From: Terebella lapidaria | Lineage: Eukaryota; Annelida; Polychaeta; Terebellida; Terebellidae | Assembly (NCBI GenBank): GCA_949152475.1 | Contig: OX424555.1 | Span: 98,551,515-98,615,514 of the forward strand | Direction: 5' to 3' | Length of the DNA stretch: 64,000 nucleotides | In this document: positions 13,093 through 47,945 of the stretch, piece by piece | Layout of the letters: each line of letters opens with the position of its first letter | How positions within the stretch are numbered: position 1 is the first letter of the stretch | Notes under the pieces: model-generated | Database searches by the model: none | The model's input: the letters and a program-made list of their open reading frames with translations, nothing else | Told to the model about the DNA's origin: nothing | Position numbers and translations under genes: made by a program

Positions 13093-13098
13093 TGTTGG
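13093..13098. repeat. Left target-site duplication TGTTGG
   Basis: TGTTGG immediately precedes the first base of the palindromic element and is repeated exactly at 18,779-18,784. A 6-bp duplication is the known hallmark of Polinton/Maverick integration. Confidence 0.9.
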
Positions 13099-13154
13099 AG
13101 TAGTAAGGACCCCCCTTTGAGTTTTTTTTGGAAAAACCCATGGTTTTTGCTATG

Positions 13155-13213
13155 GTTATATGATGTCACTTCCGGTTTTGGTTTCGGTGGTTATATGACG
13201 TCACTTCCGGTTT
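13155..13213 (+). promoter_or_regulatory. Duplicated CRE + ETS-like sites near left terminus
   Basis: Two copies of 'ggttatatgaYgtcacttcc', 34 bp apart, lie 56-115 bp from the element end. The second contains a perfect CRE palindrome TGACGTCA (13,196-13,203) joined to an ETS-like CTTCCGG. The first has TGATGTCA. Such pairs are common in animal and viral promoters. A role as an enhancer, a terminal promoter or a replication-linked site is inference. Confidence 0.5.
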
Positions 13214-13225
13214 CTGTTTAGGGTT

Positions 13226-13580
13226 CGTCATAACGTACCCGTAAATGTTTGAAAAATCATAACGTTCCCATAAATGTTTGAAAAATCATAACGTACAACC
13301 CATGATATGGAATATCATAACGCACCCATAAAAGTTTGGAAAATCATAACGGTACCATAAATGTTTGGAAAATCATAACGTTCCCATAAATGTTTGAAAA
13401 ATCATAACGTACCCATAAATGTCTGAAAAATCATAACGTACCCATTTATGTCTGGAAAATCTTAACGTACCCATGATTGTCTGAAAAATCATAATGCACC
13501 CAATTGTCTCAAAAAATCATAATGCACCCATAAATTATCGACAATCATTACACACCCATAAATGTTTTGAATATTATGAT
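13226..13580 (+). repeat. Subterminal array of twelve 28-29-bp repeats (left)
   Basis: The unit is approximately 'atcataacgtacccataaat' followed by 'gtttgaaaa', repeated about twelve times with 10-25% divergence and decaying toward the gene. The same array in mirror image is at 18,297-18,651. Arrays of this type next to a terminus can bind element-encoded proteins; nothing here proves that. Confidence 0.85.
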
Positions 13581-13723
13581 ATATATTTCAATACATTTTT
13601 ATTCACTTTATTGGTAAATTTTCTTTAACTTTGTTTTTACTATTTTTGTTTGATTTTTCCCTTTTTCAATCTATATTCAATCTGGAAAAAAATGAGTGAG
13701 TATATGACATTTTTACAGGGTTC

Positions 13724-13729
13724 TTTATT
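13724..13729 (-). terminator. Polyadenylation signal of the left ATPase gene
   Basis: AATAAA on the minus strand, 118 bases after the stop codon, followed by a T-rich stretch. Mirror of 18,148-18,153. Confidence 0.7.
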
Positions 13730-13846
13730 TCACAGTACACATTTACTATACATACAATTTCTACATACAATCAAAAGGCATGTGAAAAAGTACACATGCA
13801 CAATATACAGTTATCATGACAGATAGAGTGGGGTAGGGTTTTCTTC

Positions 13847-15766
13847 TCAATATTCAATGTCCTCATCCATGGAGTCCTCTTCTTCCGGCTGAACAACATC
13901 ATCAAAGAGATGATTGAGATTCTCCATGGACAAATTCAGTGCTTCCTCAAAGTTGGCTCCCCGTCCCATATATTTTTCCACAGCTTTCATGATTTCCGTG
14001 TGGATCATGCTTCTTTGCAACAAATGGTTCATCTTTACCATGGTTTTGTACATTTCCATCAACCCCATCTTCATTTCCAGTTTCGCCTCATCTTCGGGCA
14101 ACTCGGGTGTATATTCCATGACACGATGCAGCAGGTACTCAAAGGCCGTTTCGCATACCTCATGATCCTGGACTCCCTTGCATCCATTTTGGAACCAGCT
14201 TACGACTTGATCAAACCAGTCATGTTTCATCATGATAGCCATGTTAAGCGCATCTTTGAATGTAGCACCTCGCGCTCTGTATTCTTCAACCGCCTTTTCA
14301 ATTCCAGCATGAATCCGACTTCTCTGGAGCAGATGGATGCAATTTGCCACTCTCTGGTAGGTGTTAATCAATTCTTCTTTGATTTTTTGCGTGACCTCCT
14401 CTTCCGGCACTTCTTTTTCCTCAATTTCGCCCTGAACAGACTTCAGCATGCGTTTGAAGGCGCTTTCGTCCATTTTTCTGGGGAACTCGTCTTCCGATGA
14501 CTCGTCATCGTGTGCGGGACATCTCGGCAAGTGCATTTGTAGCTCATAGTTATTCGAAAACAGAGCTCCACAGCTGAAACATTTCATTGTCTTGTCCGAC
14601 TGCCATTCTAGAGATTTTGTATTACTTTGAGATGCTGCGGGTTGGCCCGAGGCTGGACTCTCGGATGACTGACTGTGAAGCGGGTTCGGTTGCAGGCGTT
14701 TATTTTCCTGCGTTGTCGGTTTCAGGTCCACGACAAGATGTCCGTAGGGCTCAGAGGTTGCGCTGTCGAACTCTTGAAGAAACTTTTGGGGGCAGGCGGG
14801 ATACATTTGCCTGGCCAGGGTCATGATTTGCTGCTGATCAATAGGGTTTCTGAACAGAGTCAGATAATGACAGTTTCTCCTCTGAGTCGGGTCCTTGCTG
14901 TAGTAGAGGTTCTGGTTCAAGCAAATGACGCTCAGGTTCCGATGGTGGCTCCCTTCCGTGAACAAGTCCGTGATTCTCGGATCCTTGGCGGAAATAGACA
15001 TGAGGTCGTCCAGGACGATGACGTTATTGTCCGTAGGTGAGACGAAGTCATCGGAATCCAGATTGATAGGTATCCCCTGTATGAACTGCACGGGAGGCTG
15101 CACACTAGACCTTACGATGTCGTAGAGGGGTTGCCATCTCTTGTACAGCCATATGATCCTGGTAGGGGCGGGGAATATTTGACCGGACTCCAAGAGGGAT
15201 TTTACCCAAGCCGTCTTCCCACACCCAGTAGGTCCTGACACGTTCAGGGTGAAGGGGTGTTGAAATACCAGGGGATCCATATAATTGACGGACCAGTGCT
15301 TTTGCTGCTGTGGCTGAGGCTGAGGCTGCCAAGCCTGTGGCTGTGGCTGAGGCTGAGGCTGAGGCTGAGGCTGTGGCTGAGGATGAGGCTGAGGCTGAGG
15401 CTGAGGCTGCCAAGGCTTTGGCTGAGCCTGAGGCTGAGGCTGAGGCTGTGGCTGCCAAGCCTGAGGCTGAGGCTGCCAAGCCTGAGGCTGAGGCTGCCAA
15501 GGCTGAGGCTGTGGCTGCTGAGGCTGAGGCTGCCAAGGCTTTGGCTGAGCCTGAGGCTGAGGCTGAGGCTGTGGCTGCCAAGCCTGAGGCTGAGGCTGCC
15601 AAGCCTGCTGCCAAGCCTGAGGCTGAGGCTGCCAAGGCTGAGGCTGTGGCTGAGGCTGAGGCTGTGGCTGTGGCTGCGATGGATAATCCATATGGTGCAA
15701 TTTTTGATGTCTTTTCAGGTCTTGCTTCCAATTATATGTCTTGTGGCAGAGAGCACAAGAATTCAT
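13847..15766 (-). CDS. Polinton-type FtsK/HerA DNA-packaging ATPase, left copy (639 aa)
   Basis: Predicted to drive DNA into a Polinton virion. Domains in order: C2H2 finger at residues 4-24 (C-x2-C-x12-H-x3-H); Pro/Gln/Trp repeat linker to about 155; ATPase core with Walker A GPTGCGKT (178-185), Walker B VIVLDD (249-254) and the family segment FTEGSHHRNLSVICLNQN. A C2HC finger (C-x2-C-x12-H-x3-C, from about 396) and an acidic stretch follow. Two copies of a helical repeat come next, LLQRSRIHAGIEKAVEEY and LLQRSMIHTEIMKAVEKY, and an acidic tail. The ATG has A at -3. A TATAAAAG box lies 54 bp upstream and AATAAA follows the stop. The linker is 22 codons longer than in the right copy, and residue 359 is Q where the right copy has R337. 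No intron is needed. The neighbour upstream on the same strand is the small spacer ORF, probably the original gene order. Confidence 0.85.
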   Translation of the reverse strand: MNSCALCHKTYNWKQDLKRHQKLHHMDYPSQPQPQPQPQPQPQPWQPQPQAWQQAWQPQPQAWQPQPQPQPQAQPKPWQPQPQQPQPQPWQPQPQAWQPQPQAWQPQPQPQPQAQPKPWQPQPQPQPHPQPQPQPQPQPQPQPQAWQPQPQPQQQKHWSVNYMDPLVFQHPFTLNVSGPTGCGKTAWVKSLLESGQIFPAPTRIIWLYKRWQPLYDIVRSSVQPPVQFIQGIPINLDSDDFVSPTDNNVIVLDDLMSISAKDPRITDLFTEGSHHRNLSVICLNQNLYYSKDPTQRRNCHYLTLFRNPIDQQQIMTLARQMYPACPQKFLQEFDSATSEPYGHLVVDLKPTTQENKRLQPNPLHSQSSESPASGQPAASQSNTKSLEWQSDKTMKCFSCGALFSNNYELQMHLPRCPAHDDESSEDEFPRKMDESAFKRMLKSVQGEIEEKEVPEEEVTQKIKEELINTYQRVANCIHLLQRSRIHAGIEKAVEEYRARGATFKDALNMAIMMKHDWFDQVVSWFQNGCKGVQDHEVCETAFEYLLHRVMEYTPELPEDEAKLEMKMGLMEMYKTMVKMNHLLQRSMIHTEIMKAVEKYMGRGANFEEALNLSMENLNHLFDDVVQPEEEDSMDEDIEY

Positions 15767-15819
15767 GTTGCCTCTTCAACGTCTCTTCTTCGAATGATAG
15801 TTCCTAGCTGATATTGCCA

Positions 15820-15827
15820 CTTTTATA
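15820..15827 (-). promoter_or_regulatory. TATA box of the left ATPase gene
   Basis: TATAAAAG on the minus strand, 54 bp before the start codon at 15,766, would place a transcription start about 25 bases before the ATG. It lies in the unique spacer, so only the left ATPase copy owns it. Confidence 0.65.
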
Positions 15828-15855
15828 CTCTTCAGGACCACTTTTGTTGTATACT

Positions 15856-16050
15856 TCAAAATGATGTCTTCCCTTGCTTGATCAGCAACTTGGCCCGTTC
15901 CACAGTCTGTTGTGTGGGTGTGACTAACTTTACCACTACTTTTTCTGTCTTGTCCGCCTTTTCATTGACAGTGTGGCTCTTTTTTTCTTTCTTTTCCTGT
16001 TGATATTTCTTCCAGGCATCCACTGCGGGAAGGTACGGCTTGAGGGGCAT
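15856..16050 (-). CDS. Small basic protein of the spacer (64 aa), unknown function
   Basis: I do not recognise this protein. The ATG at 16,050 opens a frame that starts MPLKPYLPAVDAWKKYQQ. It continues through a strongly basic Lys/Glu stretch and ends QTVERAKLLIKQGKTSF. It has about 17 lysines and no membrane segment. It is supported by its own CCAAT and TATA sequences upstream, by a stop 89 bp before the left ATPase start, and by lying on the same strand as that gene. This suggests it is the gene that naturally precedes the ATPase in the parental Polinton. A longer frame in the same phase runs back into the right arm, but that part is only the antisense of the repeat linker. It could be a minor virion or DNA-binding protein; this is speculative. 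Confidence 0.5.
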   Translation of the reverse strand: MPLKPYLPAVDAWKKYQQEKKEKKSHTVNEKADKTEKVVVKLVTPTQQTVERAKLLIKQGKTSF

Positions 16051-16102
16051 GTTGATCCTTCGACGTCCGAAATGCGAATGAGGAAAGAGCTCAGTACAAA
16101 GA

Positions 16103-16145
16103 CTTATATAGTTTTCTCCTTCAAAACGCTCGATTCTGATTGGTC
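16103..16145 (-). promoter_or_regulatory. CCAAT and TATA boxes before the small ORF
   Basis: On the minus strand GACCAATC (16,138-16,145) lies 27 bp upstream of CTATATAAG (16,103-16,111), which is 53 bp before the ATG at 16,050. On the plus strand the same site reads TATATAG, 66-74 bp before the right ATPase start, so it might serve both directions. Confidence 0.55.
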
Positions 16146-16176
16146 CATTCGAATGGGGTGACGTTGAAGAGGCAAC

Positions 16177-18030
16177 ATGAATTCTTGTGCTCTCTGCCAC
16201 AAGACATATAATTGGAAGCAAGACCTGAAAAGACATCAAAAATTGCACCATATGGATTATCCATCGCAGCCACAGCCACAGCCTCAGCCTCAGCCACAGC
16301 CTCAGCCTTGGCAGCCTCAGCCTAAGGCTTGGCAGCCTCAGCCTCAGCAGCCACAGCCTCAGCCTTGGCAGCCTCAGCCTCAGGCTTGGCAGCCTCAGCC
16401 TCAGGCTTGGCAGCCACAGCCTCAGCCTCAGCCTCAGGCTCAGCCAAAGCCTTGGCAGCCTCAGCCTCAGCCTCAGCCTCAGCCTCATCCTCAGCCACAG
16501 CCTCAGCCTCAGCCTCAGCCTCAGCCTCAGCCACAGCCACAGGCTTGGCAGCCTCAGCCTCAGCCACAGCAGCAAAAGCACTGGTCCGTCAATTATATGG
16601 ATCCCCTGGTATTTCAACACCCCTTCACCCTGAACGTGTCAGGACCTACTGGGTGTGGGAAGACGGCTTGGGTAAAATCCCTCTTGGAGTCCGGTCAAAT
16701 ATTCCCCGCCCCTACCAGGATCATATGGCTGTACAAGAGATGGCAACCCCTCTACGACATCGTAAGGTCTAGTGTGCAGCCTCCTGTGCAGTTCATACAG
16801 GGGATACCTATCAATCTGGATTCCGATGACTTCGTCTCACCTACGGACAATAACGTCATCGTCCTGGACGACCTCATGTCTATTTCCGCCAAGGATCCGA
16901 GAATCACGGACTTGTTCACGGAAGGGAGCCACCATCGGAACCTGAGCGTCATTTGCTTGAACCAGAACCTCTACTACAGCAAGGACCCGACTCAGAGGAG
17001 AAACTGTCATTATCTGACTCTGTTCAGAAACCCTATTGATCAGCAGCAAATCATGACCCTGGCCAGGCAAATGTATCCCGCCTGCCCCCAAAAGTTTCTT
17101 CAAGAGTTCGACAGCGCAACCTCTGAGCCCTACGGACATCTTGTCGTGGACCTGAAACCGACAACGCAGGAAAATAAACGCCTGCGACCGAACCCGCTTC
17201 ACAGTCAGTCATCCGAGAGTCCAGCCTCGGGCCAACCCGCAGCATCTCAAAGTAATACAAAATCTCTAGAATGGCAGTCGGACAAGACAATGAAATGTTT
17301 CAGCTGTGGAGCTCTGTTTTCGAATAACTATGAGCTACAAATGCACTTGCCGAGATGTCCCGCACACGATGACGAGTCATCGGAAGACGAGTTCCCCAGA
17401 AAAATGGACGAAAGCGCCTTCAAACGCATGCTGAAGTCTGTTCAGGGCGAAATTGAGGAAAAAGAAGTGCCGGAAGAGGAGGTCACGCAAAAAATCAAAG
17501 AAGAATTGATTAACACCTACCAGAGAGTGGCAAATTGCATCCATCTGCTCCAGAGAAGTCGGATTCATGCTGGAATTGAAAAGGCGGTTGAAGAATACAG
17601 AGCGCGAGGTGCTACATTCAAAGATGCGCTTAACATGGCTATCATGATGAAACATGACTGGTTTGATCAAGTCGTAAGCTGGTTCCAAAATGGATGCAAG
17701 GGAGTCCAGGATCATGAGGTATGCGAAACGGCCTTTGAGTACCTGCTGCATCGTGTCATGGAATATACACCCGAGTTGCCCGAAGATGAGGCGAAACTGG
17801 AAATGAAGATGGGGTTGATGGAAATGTACAAAACCATGGTAAAGATGAACCATTTGTTGCAAAGAAGCATGATCCACACGGAAATCATGAAAGCTGTGGA
17901 AAAATATATGGGACGGGGAGCCAACTTTGAGGAAGCACTGAATTTGTCCATGGAGAATCTCAATCATCTCTTTGATGATGTTGTTCAGCCGGAAGAAGAG
18001 GACTCCATGGATGAGGACATTGAATATTGA
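16177..18030 (+). CDS. Polinton-type FtsK/HerA DNA-packaging ATPase, right copy (617 aa)
   Basis: Same protein as the left copy. C2H2 finger at residues 4-24; PQ/WQPQPQA repeat linker 30-133; ATPase core from His135 with Walker A 156-163 and Walker B 227-232. GSHHRN is at 250-255 and the NQN sensor-like segment at 262-264. C2HC finger 374-394; acidic cluster; helical repeats 453-487 and 557-592; acidic C terminus. Only the core of roughly 230 residues matches the usual Polinton ATPase; the fingers and the duplicated helices are additions as far as I know. The gene retains the shared leader but not the TATAAAAG box of the left copy, so its promoter is uncertain. The polyadenylation signal is intact. 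Orientation is outward toward the right terminus. Confidence 0.85.
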   Translation: MNSCALCHKTYNWKQDLKRHQKLHHMDYPSQPQPQPQPQPQPQPWQPQPKAWQPQPQQPQPQPWQPQPQAWQPQPQAWQPQPQPQPQAQPKPWQPQPQPQPQPHPQPQPQPQPQPQPQPQPQAWQPQPQPQQQKHWSVNYMDPLVFQHPFTLNVSGPTGCGKTAWVKSLLESGQIFPAPTRIIWLYKRWQPLYDIVRSSVQPPVQFIQGIPINLDSDDFVSPTDNNVIVLDDLMSISAKDPRITDLFTEGSHHRNLSVICLNQNLYYSKDPTQRRNCHYLTLFRNPIDQQQIMTLARQMYPACPQKFLQEFDSATSEPYGHLVVDLKPTTQENKRLRPNPLHSQSSESPASGQPAASQSNTKSLEWQSDKTMKCFSCGALFSNNYELQMHLPRCPAHDDESSEDEFPRKMDESAFKRMLKSVQGEIEEKEVPEEEVTQKIKEELINTYQRVANCIHLLQRSRIHAGIEKAVEEYRARGATFKDALNMAIMMKHDWFDQVVSWFQNGCKGVQDHEVCETAFEYLLHRVMEYTPELPEDEAKLEMKMGLMEMYKTMVKMNHLLQRSMIHTEIMKAVEKYMGRGANFEEALNLSMENLNHLFDDVVQPEEEDSMDEDIEY

Positions 18031-18147
18031 GAAGAAAACCCTACCCCACTCTATCTGTCATGATAACTGTATATTGTGCATGTGTACTTTTTCACATGCC
18101 TTTTGATTGTATGTAGAAATTGTATGTATAGTAAATGTGTACTGTGA

Positions 18148-18153
18148 AATAAA
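18148..18153 (+). terminator. Polyadenylation signal of the right ATPase gene
   Basis: AATAAA 118 bases after the stop codon, mirror image of the left site. Confidence 0.7.
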
Positions 18154-18296
18154 GAACCCTGTAAAAATGTCATATACTCACTCATTTTTTTCCAGATTGA
18201 ATATAGATTGAAAAAGGGAAAAATCAAACAAAAATAGTAAAAACAAAGTTAAAGAAAATTTACCAATAAAGTGAATAAAAATGTATTGAAATATAT

Positions 18297-18651
18297 ATCA
18301 TAATATTCAAAACATTTATGGGTGTGTAATGATTGTCGATAATTTATGGGTGCATTATGATTTTTTGAGACAATTGGGTGCATTATGATTTTTCAGACAA
18401 TCATGGGTACGTTAAGATTTTCCAGACATAAATGGGTACGTTATGATTTTTCAGACATTTATGGGTACGTTATGATTTTTCAAACATTTATGGGAACGTT
18501 ATGATTTTCCAAACATTTATGGTACCGTTATGATTTTCCAAACTTTTATGGGTGCGTTATGATATTCCATATCATGGGTTGTACGTTATGATTTTTCAAA
18601 CATTTATGGGAACGTTATGATTTTTCAAACATTTACGGGTACGTTATGACG
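18297..18651 (-). repeat. Subterminal array of twelve 28-29-bp repeats (right)
   Basis: Exact mirror of 13,226-13,580 as far as I compared. Even the irregular units (such as the one with 'acaacccatgatatgg' in the left arm) are conserved in order. Confidence 0.85.
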
Positions 18652-18663
18652 AACCCTAAACAG

Positions 18664-18722
18664 AAACCGGAAGTGACGTCATATAACCACCGAAACCAAA
18701 ACCGGAAGTGACATCATATAAC
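18664..18722 (-). promoter_or_regulatory. Duplicated CRE + ETS-like sites near right terminus
   Basis: Mirror of 13,155-13,213: CCGGAAGTGACGTCA and CCGGAAGTGACATCA, 34 bp apart. Confidence 0.5.
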
Positions 18723-18778
18723 CATAGCAAAAACCATGGGTTTTTCCAAAAAAAACTCAAAGGGGGGTCCTTACTACT

Positions 18779-18784
18779 TGTTGG
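18779..18784. repeat. Right target-site duplication TGTTGG
   Basis: Exact repeat of 13,093-13,098, abutting the last base (CCTTACTACT) of the element. Confidence 0.9.
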
Positions 18785-44539: not shown

Positions 44540-45169
44540 TATATGCTGCATGATAAAACCGAATATTGTGAAAAGCCCGACATGGTCGGGTTTCTCATGT
44601 GATAAAAGTGACCATGTCGCTTTTTTCACGTGAAATATCCGACCATGTCGCTTTTTTCACGGTTGGTGTTTTCGGCGTGAAAAAAGCAACATGCCCGTGA
44701 AGTACCCAACATTAACTGCGGAGTTATTGAAATAGCTTTTGTGTGTAAAATTCACGACATGCATGTCCATATTATCGTCCAATTCATGGACTTCCACTCA
44801 ATATTGAATCAGTATTCAGCGCTGAAATCGAGTGGGGGTGGGGGATCTGGCAGAACAGCACAACAAAGGATTTTATGGTGCGATATTAACCAATACATCG
44901 AGCTATGTTTTGGGTGCCTTATGTGCTGCGTTCCATTCTAGTCGTGCAAATGGTGACGGTGGTGCAGTACGAGTTCGAAGCATTCCATTGGCAAAACACA
45001 CAAATCGTCATTAAGACTGTCTGTTTACATTTGCTAATGAAACAATAACTTAATTGAAACGTATAAAGAAGTCAAATAATCTTTGATATGGATATCGCGG
45101 CCCATGTAGCGTATCTTACTCTACAAATTTTCAGTAGTACTTCAATACTGGTTCAGTCATATGGTACAT

Positions 45170-46230
45170 GATGGGGGTATGTTTTCTGACCGTCCGACAG
45201 TCCGACTGCAGACATCTCAATACTAAAGGGTGCACTGATTTCTTTCCGCGAGCATCCGACTGCAGACAATGATATACTACATGATGGGGCACGTTTTCTG
45301 ACCGTCCGACAGTCCGACTGCAGACAGCTCAATACTAAAGGGTAAATTAATTTCCTTCCGCGAGCATTCGACTACAGACAATGATATAGTACATGATGGG
45401 GGCATGGTTTCTGACCGTCCGACCATCCGACTGCAGACATCTCAATTCTCAATACTAAAGGGTACATACATTTCCTTCCAACCTTCCGACTGCAGACAAT
45501 GATATAGTACATGATGGGGGCATGTTTCTCTACCGTTTGACCATCCGACTGCAGACATCTCAATACTAAAGGGTACATACATTTCCTTCCAACCTTCCGA
45601 CTGCAGACAATGATATAGTACATGATGGGGGCATGTTTTCAGACCGTCCGACAGTCCGACTGCAGACAGCTCAATACTAAACGGTGCATTGATTTCCTTC
45701 CACGACCAACCGACAGTCCGACTGCAGACAATGATATAGTACATGATGGGGGCATAATAATTTCACACCGTCCGACCATCCGACTGCAGACATCTCAATA
45801 CTAAAGGGTACCGGGATTTCGTTCAGACCATCCGACTGCAGACAATGATATAGTGCATGACGGGGGCATGTTTTCTGACCGTCCGACAGTCCGACTGCAG
45901 ACAGCTCAATATTAAACGGTGCATTGATTTCCTTCCACGACCAACCGACAGTCCGACTGCAGACAATGATATAGTACATAATGGGGGCATGTTTTCACAC
46001 CGTCCGACCATCCGACAGCAGACATCTCAATACTAAAGGGTACATACATTTCCTTCCAACCTTCCGACTGCAGTCAATGATATAGTACATAATGGGGGCA
46101 TGTTTTCACACCGTCCGACCATCCGACAGCAGACATCTCAATACTAAAGGGTACATACATTTCCTTCCAACCTTCCGACTGCAGACAATGATATAGTACA
46201 TGATGGGGGCATGCTACGTGTTGGTGACCA
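45170..46230 (-). repeat. Left satellite array, 112-119-bp units
   Basis: The landmark 'gatatagtacatgatggggg' recurs near 45,382, 45,499, 45,612, 45,730, 45,847, 45,966, 46,078 and 46,190. Each unit is a dimer of two half-units that both begin TCCGACTGCAGACA (a PstI site in each). Confidence 0.9.
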
Positions 46231-46529: not shown

Positions 46530-47945
46530 GTATTGGGCTGTCGGAAAGTCGGACTGTCGGACGGTCAGAAAACATATCCCCATCATATACTATATCTTTG
46601 TCTGCAGTCGGATGGTCTGAACGAAATCAATGTACCTGTTAGGTTTGCGATGATTGCAGTCGGACTGTCGGACGGTCAGAAAACATACCCCCATCATGTA
46701 CCATATCATTGTCTGCAGTCGGATGGTCTGAACGAAATTAAAGTACCTTTTAGTTATGAGATGTCTGCAGTCGGACTGTCGGACGATCAGAAAACATACC
46801 CCATCATGTTCTATATCATTGTCTGCAGTCGGATGATCTGAACGAAATCAATGCACCGTTTAGTATTAAGCTGTCTGCAGTCGGACTGTCGCACGGTCAG
46901 AAGACATATCCCCATCATGTACTATATCTTTGTCTGCAGTCGGATGGTCTGAACGAAATCAATGCACCCTTTAGCATTAAGCTGTCTGCAGTCGGACTGT
47001 CGGACGGTCAGAAAACATGCCCTCATAATGTACTATATCATTGTCTGCAGTCGGATGGTCGCGGAAGGAAATCAATGCACCCTTTAGTATTGAGATGTCT
47101 GCAGTCGGACGGTCAGAAAACATACCCCCATCATGTACTATATCATTGTCTGCAGTCGGACGGTCTGAACAAGATTAAAGTACTTTTTAGTTATGAGATG
47201 TCTGCAGTCGGACTGTATCATTGTCTGCAGTCGGATGGTCGCGGAAGGAAATCAATACATCCTTCAGTATTGAGATGTCTGCAGTCGGACTGTCGGACGG
47301 TCAGAAAACATACCCCCATCATGTGCTATATCATTGTCTGCAGTCGGATGGTCTGAATGAAATTAATGTACTTTTTAGAGATGTCTGCTGTCGGATGGTC
47401 GGATGGTCAGAAAACATGCTCCCATCAGGTACTATATCATTGTCTGCAGTCGGGTGGTCTGAACGAAATCCATGTACCCTTAAGTTCAGTATTGAGATGT
47501 CTGCAGTCGGACTGTCGGACGGTCAGAAAATATGCCCCCATCATTTACTGTATCATTGTCTGCAGTCGGATGGTCTGAATGAAATCAATGTACCTTCTAG
47601 TTATGAGATGTCTGCAGTAGGACTGTCGGGCGGTCAGAAAACATACCCCATCATGTACTATATCATTGTCTGCAGTCGGATGGTCTCAACGAAATCAATG
47701 TACCTTTTAGTTATGAGATGTCTGCAGTCGGACTGTCGGGCGGTCAGAAAACATATCCCCATAATGTACTATGTCATTGTCTGCAGTCGGATGGTCTGAA
47801 CGAAATCATTGCACCCTTAAGTTTAGTATTGAGATGTCTGCAGTCGGACTGTCGGATGGTCAGAATACATACCCCCATCATTGTTATATCATTGTCTGCA
47901 GTCGGATGGTCGCGGAAGGAAATACATGTAAATGCACCCTTCAGT
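46530..47945 (+). repeat. Right satellite array, inverted orientation
   Basis: Same dimeric units, reading TGTCTGCAGTCGGA in each half-unit, about twelve dimers with some fused or deleted halves (for example near 47,212). Confidence 0.9.

Follow-up and report, generated by a model that had tools for sequence, protein, structure and literature searches.

A palindromic element in the genome of Terebella lapidaria, probably a copy-back derivative of a small Polinton satellite

How does a mobile element come to consist of one of its own ends, written twice and head to head? The question is raised by an element found in a 64,000-nt stretch of Terebella lapidaria DNA (the window, whose coordinates are used for the element throughout). 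The element spans positions 13099-18778 (5680 bp), and had been interpreted, in an original prediction made from the letters alone, as the copy-back product of a Polinton (Maverick) end. AG...CT termini and 6-bp target-site duplications are traits of the Polinton family, as are a retroviral-type integrase and a packaging-type ATPase. The gene for a protein-primed DNA polymerase B (PolB) is a defining feature of the family, according to PMC4046053 and PMC4642659. Our analysis indicates that the element is probably a palindrome derived by copy-back from a small Polinton satellite. The parent was apparently not a full Polinton, but a member of a small class with Polinton-type termini and a distinct ATPase gene, called here ATPase-2.

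The near-perfect palindrome, short loop and 6-bp duplication described in the original prediction were all verified. The left arm, corresponding to the A end of the satellite (13099-15783, plus strand, 2685 nt), and the right arm, the copied-back A end (16160-18778, minus strand, 2619 nt), are reverse complements with three mismatches and three indels, and enclose a single-copy loop of 376 nt (15784-16159). TGTTGG flanks the element on both sides (13093-13098 and 18779-18784). The indels, of 6, 6 and 78 nt, all fall inside a hypervariable repeat coding for Gln-Pro (15307-15676, minus strand, and 16267-16570, plus strand); outside the repeat the arms differ at just 2 of 2189 positions, hence the window copy is young. 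Each end of the element reads AGTAGTAAGGACCCCCC, the terminus of the left arm being AGTAGTAAGG. Palindromy ends precisely at the transposon termini, the DNA flanking them on the two sides is dissimilar, and the agreement of the arms is far above chance. Complementary arms and the 6-bp duplication uphold the view that one terminus was duplicated head to head and integrated. The subterminal tandem arrays (13228-13567, plus strand, about 11.8 copies; 18310-18649, minus strand) have a unit of 29 bp, and not of 28 bp as first thought. Two ATPase-2 open reading frames (ORFs), of 639 amino acids (aa; 13847-15766, minus strand) and 617 aa (16177-18030, plus strand), read outward from the centre; a 64-aa gene (15856-16050, minus strand), which forms the end of a longer open frame and was also translated alone, resides inside the loop.

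The terminal 802 bp were used as query against the assembly (761.6 Mb, 438 contigs). As the best 40 of 625 candidates were scored, counts are lower bounds. At least 44 matches were obtained, grouped into at least 23 loci, and at least 16 of the 23 loci listed, the window among them, carry inverted A-end pairs. Sequences read besides the window include 15 inverted-pair loci and 7 other A-end loci. The 6-bp duplications are exact in 20 of the 21 elements with both ends found, L036 featuring one mismatch; a single end is seen in L026 and L037. The palindrome is therefore a member of an amplified family and not an isolated defective form; as to rarity, the original prediction was apparently mistaken. 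ATPase-2 genes were also monitored through the best 150 of 416 candidates, 140 of which were tabulated (nine from a cluster at 31.7-31.9 Mb of C11 and one C15 fragment were left out). Among the 140, 48 form 24 pairs less than 6 kb apart, 16 diverging, 6 converging and 2 in tandem; sequence was read for 13 of the diverging pairs, nine of them whole and four at the centre, and for five converging pairs. In the C11 cluster (C11:31706926-31902784), fragments of ATPase-2 are repeated ten times, with spacings of 1.2 kb in some cases.

Straight relatives feature the A end once, followed by a different B end, their inverted repeats being just 77-130 bp long and 78-98% identical. They are L030 (5620 bp), L028 (5266 bp, part of which is an internal insertion), L032 (3600 bp), L034 (3591 bp) and L036 (4133 bp). 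The presence of the ATPase end once in all of them speaks against a parent with ATPase genes at both ends, the arrangement held in the original prediction to be incompatible with a copy-back. L032 and L034 share the same duplication and are 99.2% identical, and thus probably represent a single insertion copied along with its flanks. At L032:3728-4906 (C3), as in the L034 twin (C12), the satellite copy sits where an ORF ends that encodes an rva_4-family integrase core (PF24764, detected in L032).

The palindromes part from the sequence shared with L030 at window position 16160 (junction J1). The letters at J1 are GGGTGACGGTAGTG in L030, AAGAGACGTTGAAG on the other strand of the A arm, and GGGTGACGTTGAAG in the palindromes, GACG being common. 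The tetranucleotide is found at 16160-16163 (plus strand), the proposed break point of a template switch, past which the parent-like L030 goes on with a different sequence, and at 15780-15783 (minus strand), the proposed rejoin point. Microhomology of four bases or more is expected at 1.6% of random joints (chance 0.016, assuming equal base use). Among the sequences read, J1 is exact (25/25 nt) at ten places in nine loci, the window, L011, L012, L013, L015, L016, L017 (twice), L018 and L026 (where the second arm is cut short). J1 was probably made once, and then spread to at least nine loci. Missed adapters can yield perfect palindromes, and an assembly or sequencing artefact, such as a hairpin or chimeric long read, had to be considered. 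This explanation was rejected as very unlikely indeed: the palindrome runs exactly from terminus to terminus between unlike flanks and a target-site duplication, the arms are not identical, and nine loci share the junction, all eight of those that have both ends showing exact duplications.

Further variation was observed among the other A-end palindromes. L030 and L014 continue past the J1 point into parent-like sequence, L014 rejoining the A arm elsewhere (J2) after an intervening sequence that could not be placed. J7 is found in L045 and L048, J8 in L046 and L047, two diverged locus pairs. L022-L025 have a common arrangement (J3), the centre of L022 being slightly different. L017 can be read as a J1 palindrome refolded within its second arm, with a further jump, and L021 is also rearranged. 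Since junctions other than J1 are found in other A-end palindromes, the formation of palindromes was recurrent. A GCGTCC match at J8 to the straight copy L049, spotted by eye, was left unused, L049 being diverged and the match requiring a 2-nt gap at its side.

A template switch during replication fits the 4-bp microhomology seen at J1 with L030 as proxy parent. The parent, of a type represented in the genome by contiguous natural copies, would have carried an A end with ATPase-2 and the 64-aa gene, a different B end, short inverted repeats, Polinton-type termini and 6-bp duplications. The protein-primed polymerase of a helper Polinton would start at the A terminus and leave its template after about 3.06 kb; through GACG, the nascent strand would pair again 376 nt back on the complementary strand, and copying would then return to the A terminus. 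Both ends of the resulting molecule would bear an origin and a terminus that the integrase recognises, and it would so replicate as an element of its own and be integrated by the helper integrase. Protein-primed switching, replication through a panhandle, integration by a helper, dependence on it, and a packaging role of ATPase-2 are all steps that we infer; it is the shared termini alone that suggest mobilisation by a helper Polinton.

Evidence of replication as a palindrome may be sought in the eight J1 copies having both arms. The same allele is found in both arms of every copy at 31 of 35 informative sites, and no site separates all left from all right arms. The mean distance between arms is 0.37% within copies vs 1.08% between copies, and re-pairing permutations gave values as low as observed once in 20000. 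Six of the eight copies have copy-specific alleles common to both arms (1 in the window, 2 in L013, 4 in L015, 4 in L016, 3 in L017, 3 in L018; 0 in L011 and L012). Between 1 and 15 alleles per copy are confined to one arm, in keeping with changes gained since insertion. In the tree, L015, L017 and L018 are the only copies whose left and right arms group together with high support, and in the young group formed by the window, L011 and L012, as in L014, a foreign arm can be nearer than the own arm. Had the arms been independent since J1 was made, left arms would resemble the left arms of other copies. This is not so, and the arms thus appear to have been homogenised during the spread of the family. 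Arms would evolve together because, as proposed, one arm can correct the other when the element replicates through a panhandle whose stem is 2.7 kb long.

The same product is predicted by a chromosomal origin, in which microhomology-mediated joining removes the facing B halves of two inverted satellite neighbours, leaving outer A ends that subsequently serve as one element. The 4-bp microhomology at J1 is accommodated by this scheme, which must be repeated for J1, J2, J7, J8, J3 and a Polinton on C17, palindromic by coordinates and described below; the second-order palindrome in L017 and the co-evolving arms fit replicative copy-back better. We regard a chromosomal origin as rather unlikely.

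Polintons of the same genome were reached through a 357-aa gene carried by L030, matches to which, at 96% on C13 and 91% on C1, led to elements running onward from C13:34099406 and downward from C1:49820505. At its C13 end the former reads AGCAGCAAGGACCCGGATTTGAGG; this Polinton has an integrase with a chromodomain (PF00665, 2e-13; PF00385, 2e-6), an ATPase whose Pox_A32 match is below threshold, and a PolB spread over several reading frames (PF03175, 5e-7). A 457-aa protein with no Pfam match is taken by us, from its look and position, as the putative major capsid protein. The palindrome-type terminus is found at one end of the C13 and one end of the C1 Polinton. ATPase-2 is 38% identical to the C13 ATPase over 197 aa (E 2e-38), and the Polinton ATPase (ATPase-1) and the palindrome ATPase-2 are, to judge from this comparison, different genes. 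The integrase, two PolB pieces and the 457-aa protein gave no tblastn match (E up to 1e-3) in any of the 21 satellite elements. L030, L028, L032 and L034 are complete elements with helper-like termini, in which no replication or integration gene was matched.

ATPase-2 and PolB are also separated along the genome. All 150 ATPase-2 matches listed (best 150 of 416) are more than 25 kb from every one of the 88 PolB matches listed, the nearest among them being 43.6 kb away; a full Polinton with this ATPase, for which the original prediction suggested a search of the same genome, was therefore not found among these matches. For neighbourhood tabulations 60 and 61 of the PolB matches were used, with 77 of 103 integrase matches (best 99 of 3394 candidates scored), fragments and second pieces being omitted from both; 49 of 57 matches to the 357-aa gene were kept, eight fragments or second pieces being left out. 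Of these 49 loci, 25 lie close to PolB and/or integrase, in 23 cases to both, and not to ATPase-2; 20 are near ATPase-2 only, 1 is near both kinds (a cluster on C4), and 3 are near neither. The hypergeometric probability of this separation is 1.2e-9, to be read with the provision that the loci are kin by descent and do not amount to 49 independent tests. Because ATPase-2 is separate from PolB and integrase, and Polintons have a different ATPase of their own, the parent seems to have belonged to a small, satellite-like class. L030 and its kin had initially been taken as plain Polinton deletions, a reading dropped in view of this separation.

Of the original prediction, the copy-back form is thus favoured by the straight relatives and the microhomology, while the full Polinton as source is not. 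A copy-back of a full Polinton, ATPase-2 being the end gene of that Polinton, would account for termini and 6-bp duplications of Polinton kind; four of the five straight copies lack the 357-aa gene and could be deletion products of a larger element, and a Polinton palindromic by coordinates does exist on C17. We hold this origin to be improbable, given the distances from PolB just reported, the different gene found as ATPase-1, and the straight ATPase-2 elements, which end after 3.6-5.6 kb with duplications of their own, exact in four of five (L030, L028, L032, L034).

The C17 Polinton (C17:27762159-27778397) has mirrored gene coordinates: the 357-aa gene at 27762159 (plus) and 27777468 (minus), the integrase, with equal scores, at 27763582 (minus) and 27775700 (plus), PolB at 27769800 (minus) and 27770160 (plus). 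Spacings of 1423 and 7641 are the same on both arms, and the centre falls inside PolB, about 70 residues of which are, by coordinates, in single copy. It is the only inverted pair closer than 20 kb among the 49 tabulated 357-aa loci, hence the satellite palindromes found use the A end. Inverted PolB pairs of another Polinton lineage, with equal scores and about 16.3 and 16.5 kb apart, reside at C1:2932456-2948718 and C16:15680192-15696659; they may be palindromes or neighbours.

ATPase-2 starts with a weak C2H2-like finger, followed by the Gln-Pro repeat, a P-loop ATPase domain weakly similar to Pox_A32 and IVa2 (the Pox_A32 match is slightly below the Pfam cut-off), and a tail. Comparison with PHROGs and PDB sequences gave nothing useful on the family. 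The ratio of nonsynonymous to synonymous substitution rates (dN/dS) ranges from 0.22 to 0.38 (seven comparisons among six elements, without significance test), hence ATPase-2 is probably kept as a working protein somewhere; the gene is broken in L030. Homologues of the 64-aa protein, 44% (C13) and 49% (C1) identical, are encoded directly upstream of the 457-aa gene in the two Polintons. By tblastn the 357-aa gene is found in L030 only among the 21 elements; by coordinates, 19 or 20 further 357-aa loci lie beside ATPase-2. The fold predicted for the 357-aa protein was too poor for use (predicted local distance difference test score 34.8). Two protein scans of viral contigs found no relatives; a 16-nt terminus pattern matched two such contigs, perhaps by chance. 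A putative TATA-like TATAAAAG upstream of the left ATPase-2 (15820-15827, minus strand) and a putative symmetric TATATA (16105-16110) were picked out by eye; the latter could serve both the 64-aa gene and the right ATPase-2. Elsewhere in the window, large tandem arrays with a unit of about 111 bp, apparently (by eye) in opposite orientations, occupy 45159-46213 and 46547-47923.

Several points weigh against a copy-back derivative of a satellite. GACG is read from a proxy for the direct parent of J1, L030 being diverged from the palindromes by about 9-12% over the A half; the microhomology would suit end-joining between two inverted neighbours as well. L019, L020 and L047 may be centre deletions instead of new copy-backs. 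The arm nearest to the left arms of L011, L012 and L014 belongs to a different copy, and the right arm of L013 matches L020 at least equally well. As to the parent, the C13 and C1 Polintons were read from one end, and the C13 element, its PolB lying in several frames, counts as full in gene content only. Three of the 140 tabulated ATPase-2 genes (C2:32918470, C11:34642141, C13:19088381), relatives at 69-70%, adjoin within 12 kb an integrase 38-40% identical to the query, the integrases being those of the best 99 of 3394 candidates; they are possibly an older source of ATPase-2. A Polinton with ATPase-2 could be missed among the best 150 of 416 and best 99 of 3394 candidates, and the selection signal on ATPase-2 may date from a larger ancestor.

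Among known systems, Polintons are the closest to these elements in having termini starting with AG and 6-bp duplications (20 of 21 elements), and same-genome Polintons have homologues of the ATPase, of the 64-aa and, for L030, of the 357-aa protein; the elements described here are unlike them because without matches to PolB, integrase and capsid-like protein, with a different ATPase, and palindromic. The resemblance of ATPase-2 to the packaging-type ATPase of Polintons makes a packaging role a prediction. Replication of Polintons as protein-primed, virus-like linear DNA is mostly deduced from gene content. Adenoviruses, which have protein-primed linear DNA, form defective snapback genomes in which one end is duplicated; to our knowledge these are neither integrated nor inherited, whereas the palindromes reported here are integrated copies. 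The phage satellites P4 and phage-inducible chromosomal islands (PICIs) are small prokaryotic elements with genes akin to helper packaging functions, and their helper dependence has been shown; the present elements share the packaging-related genes, helper dependence being here conjectural. Tlr1 of Tetrahymena is, according to PMC4642659, a Polinton-like element similarly without polymerase, which unlike these elements retains integrase and both capsid genes. The nearest natural parallel may be adeno-associated virus (AAV), the snapback genomes of which, as described in PMC8235507, consist of one end of the linear genome, self-complementary around a loop, arise from either end in symmetric or asymmetric form, and are proposed as regulatory subgenomes. 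As described there they are packaged forms of a hairpin-primed parvovirus, while those found here are palindromes multiplied in an assembled genome. The titles and abstract openings listed for Polintons and for adenovirus, panhandle or snap-back contain no report of palindromic or satellite Polintons.

A more speculative scheme, which we consider possible but would not favour, is that satellites divert helper particles by means of a packaging ATPase variant of their own, and that the A end is selected for self-complementary, double-dose genomes with two ATPase genes and head-to-head promoters; snapbacks, passed on through the germ line and replicating as palindromes corrected arm to arm, would have displaced much of the straight form.

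Nine places in the genome share one joint, and snapback forms of a small Polinton relative can therefore evidently be inherited and multiply. If the copy-back reading is true, recurrent palindromes, a microhomology junction and arm correction would be a genomic footprint of protein-primed replication, countable in any assembly. The family would further suggest that Polintons have satellites for which they act as helpers, and that snapback genomes, far from being defective dead ends, are parasites that multiply and are inherited.

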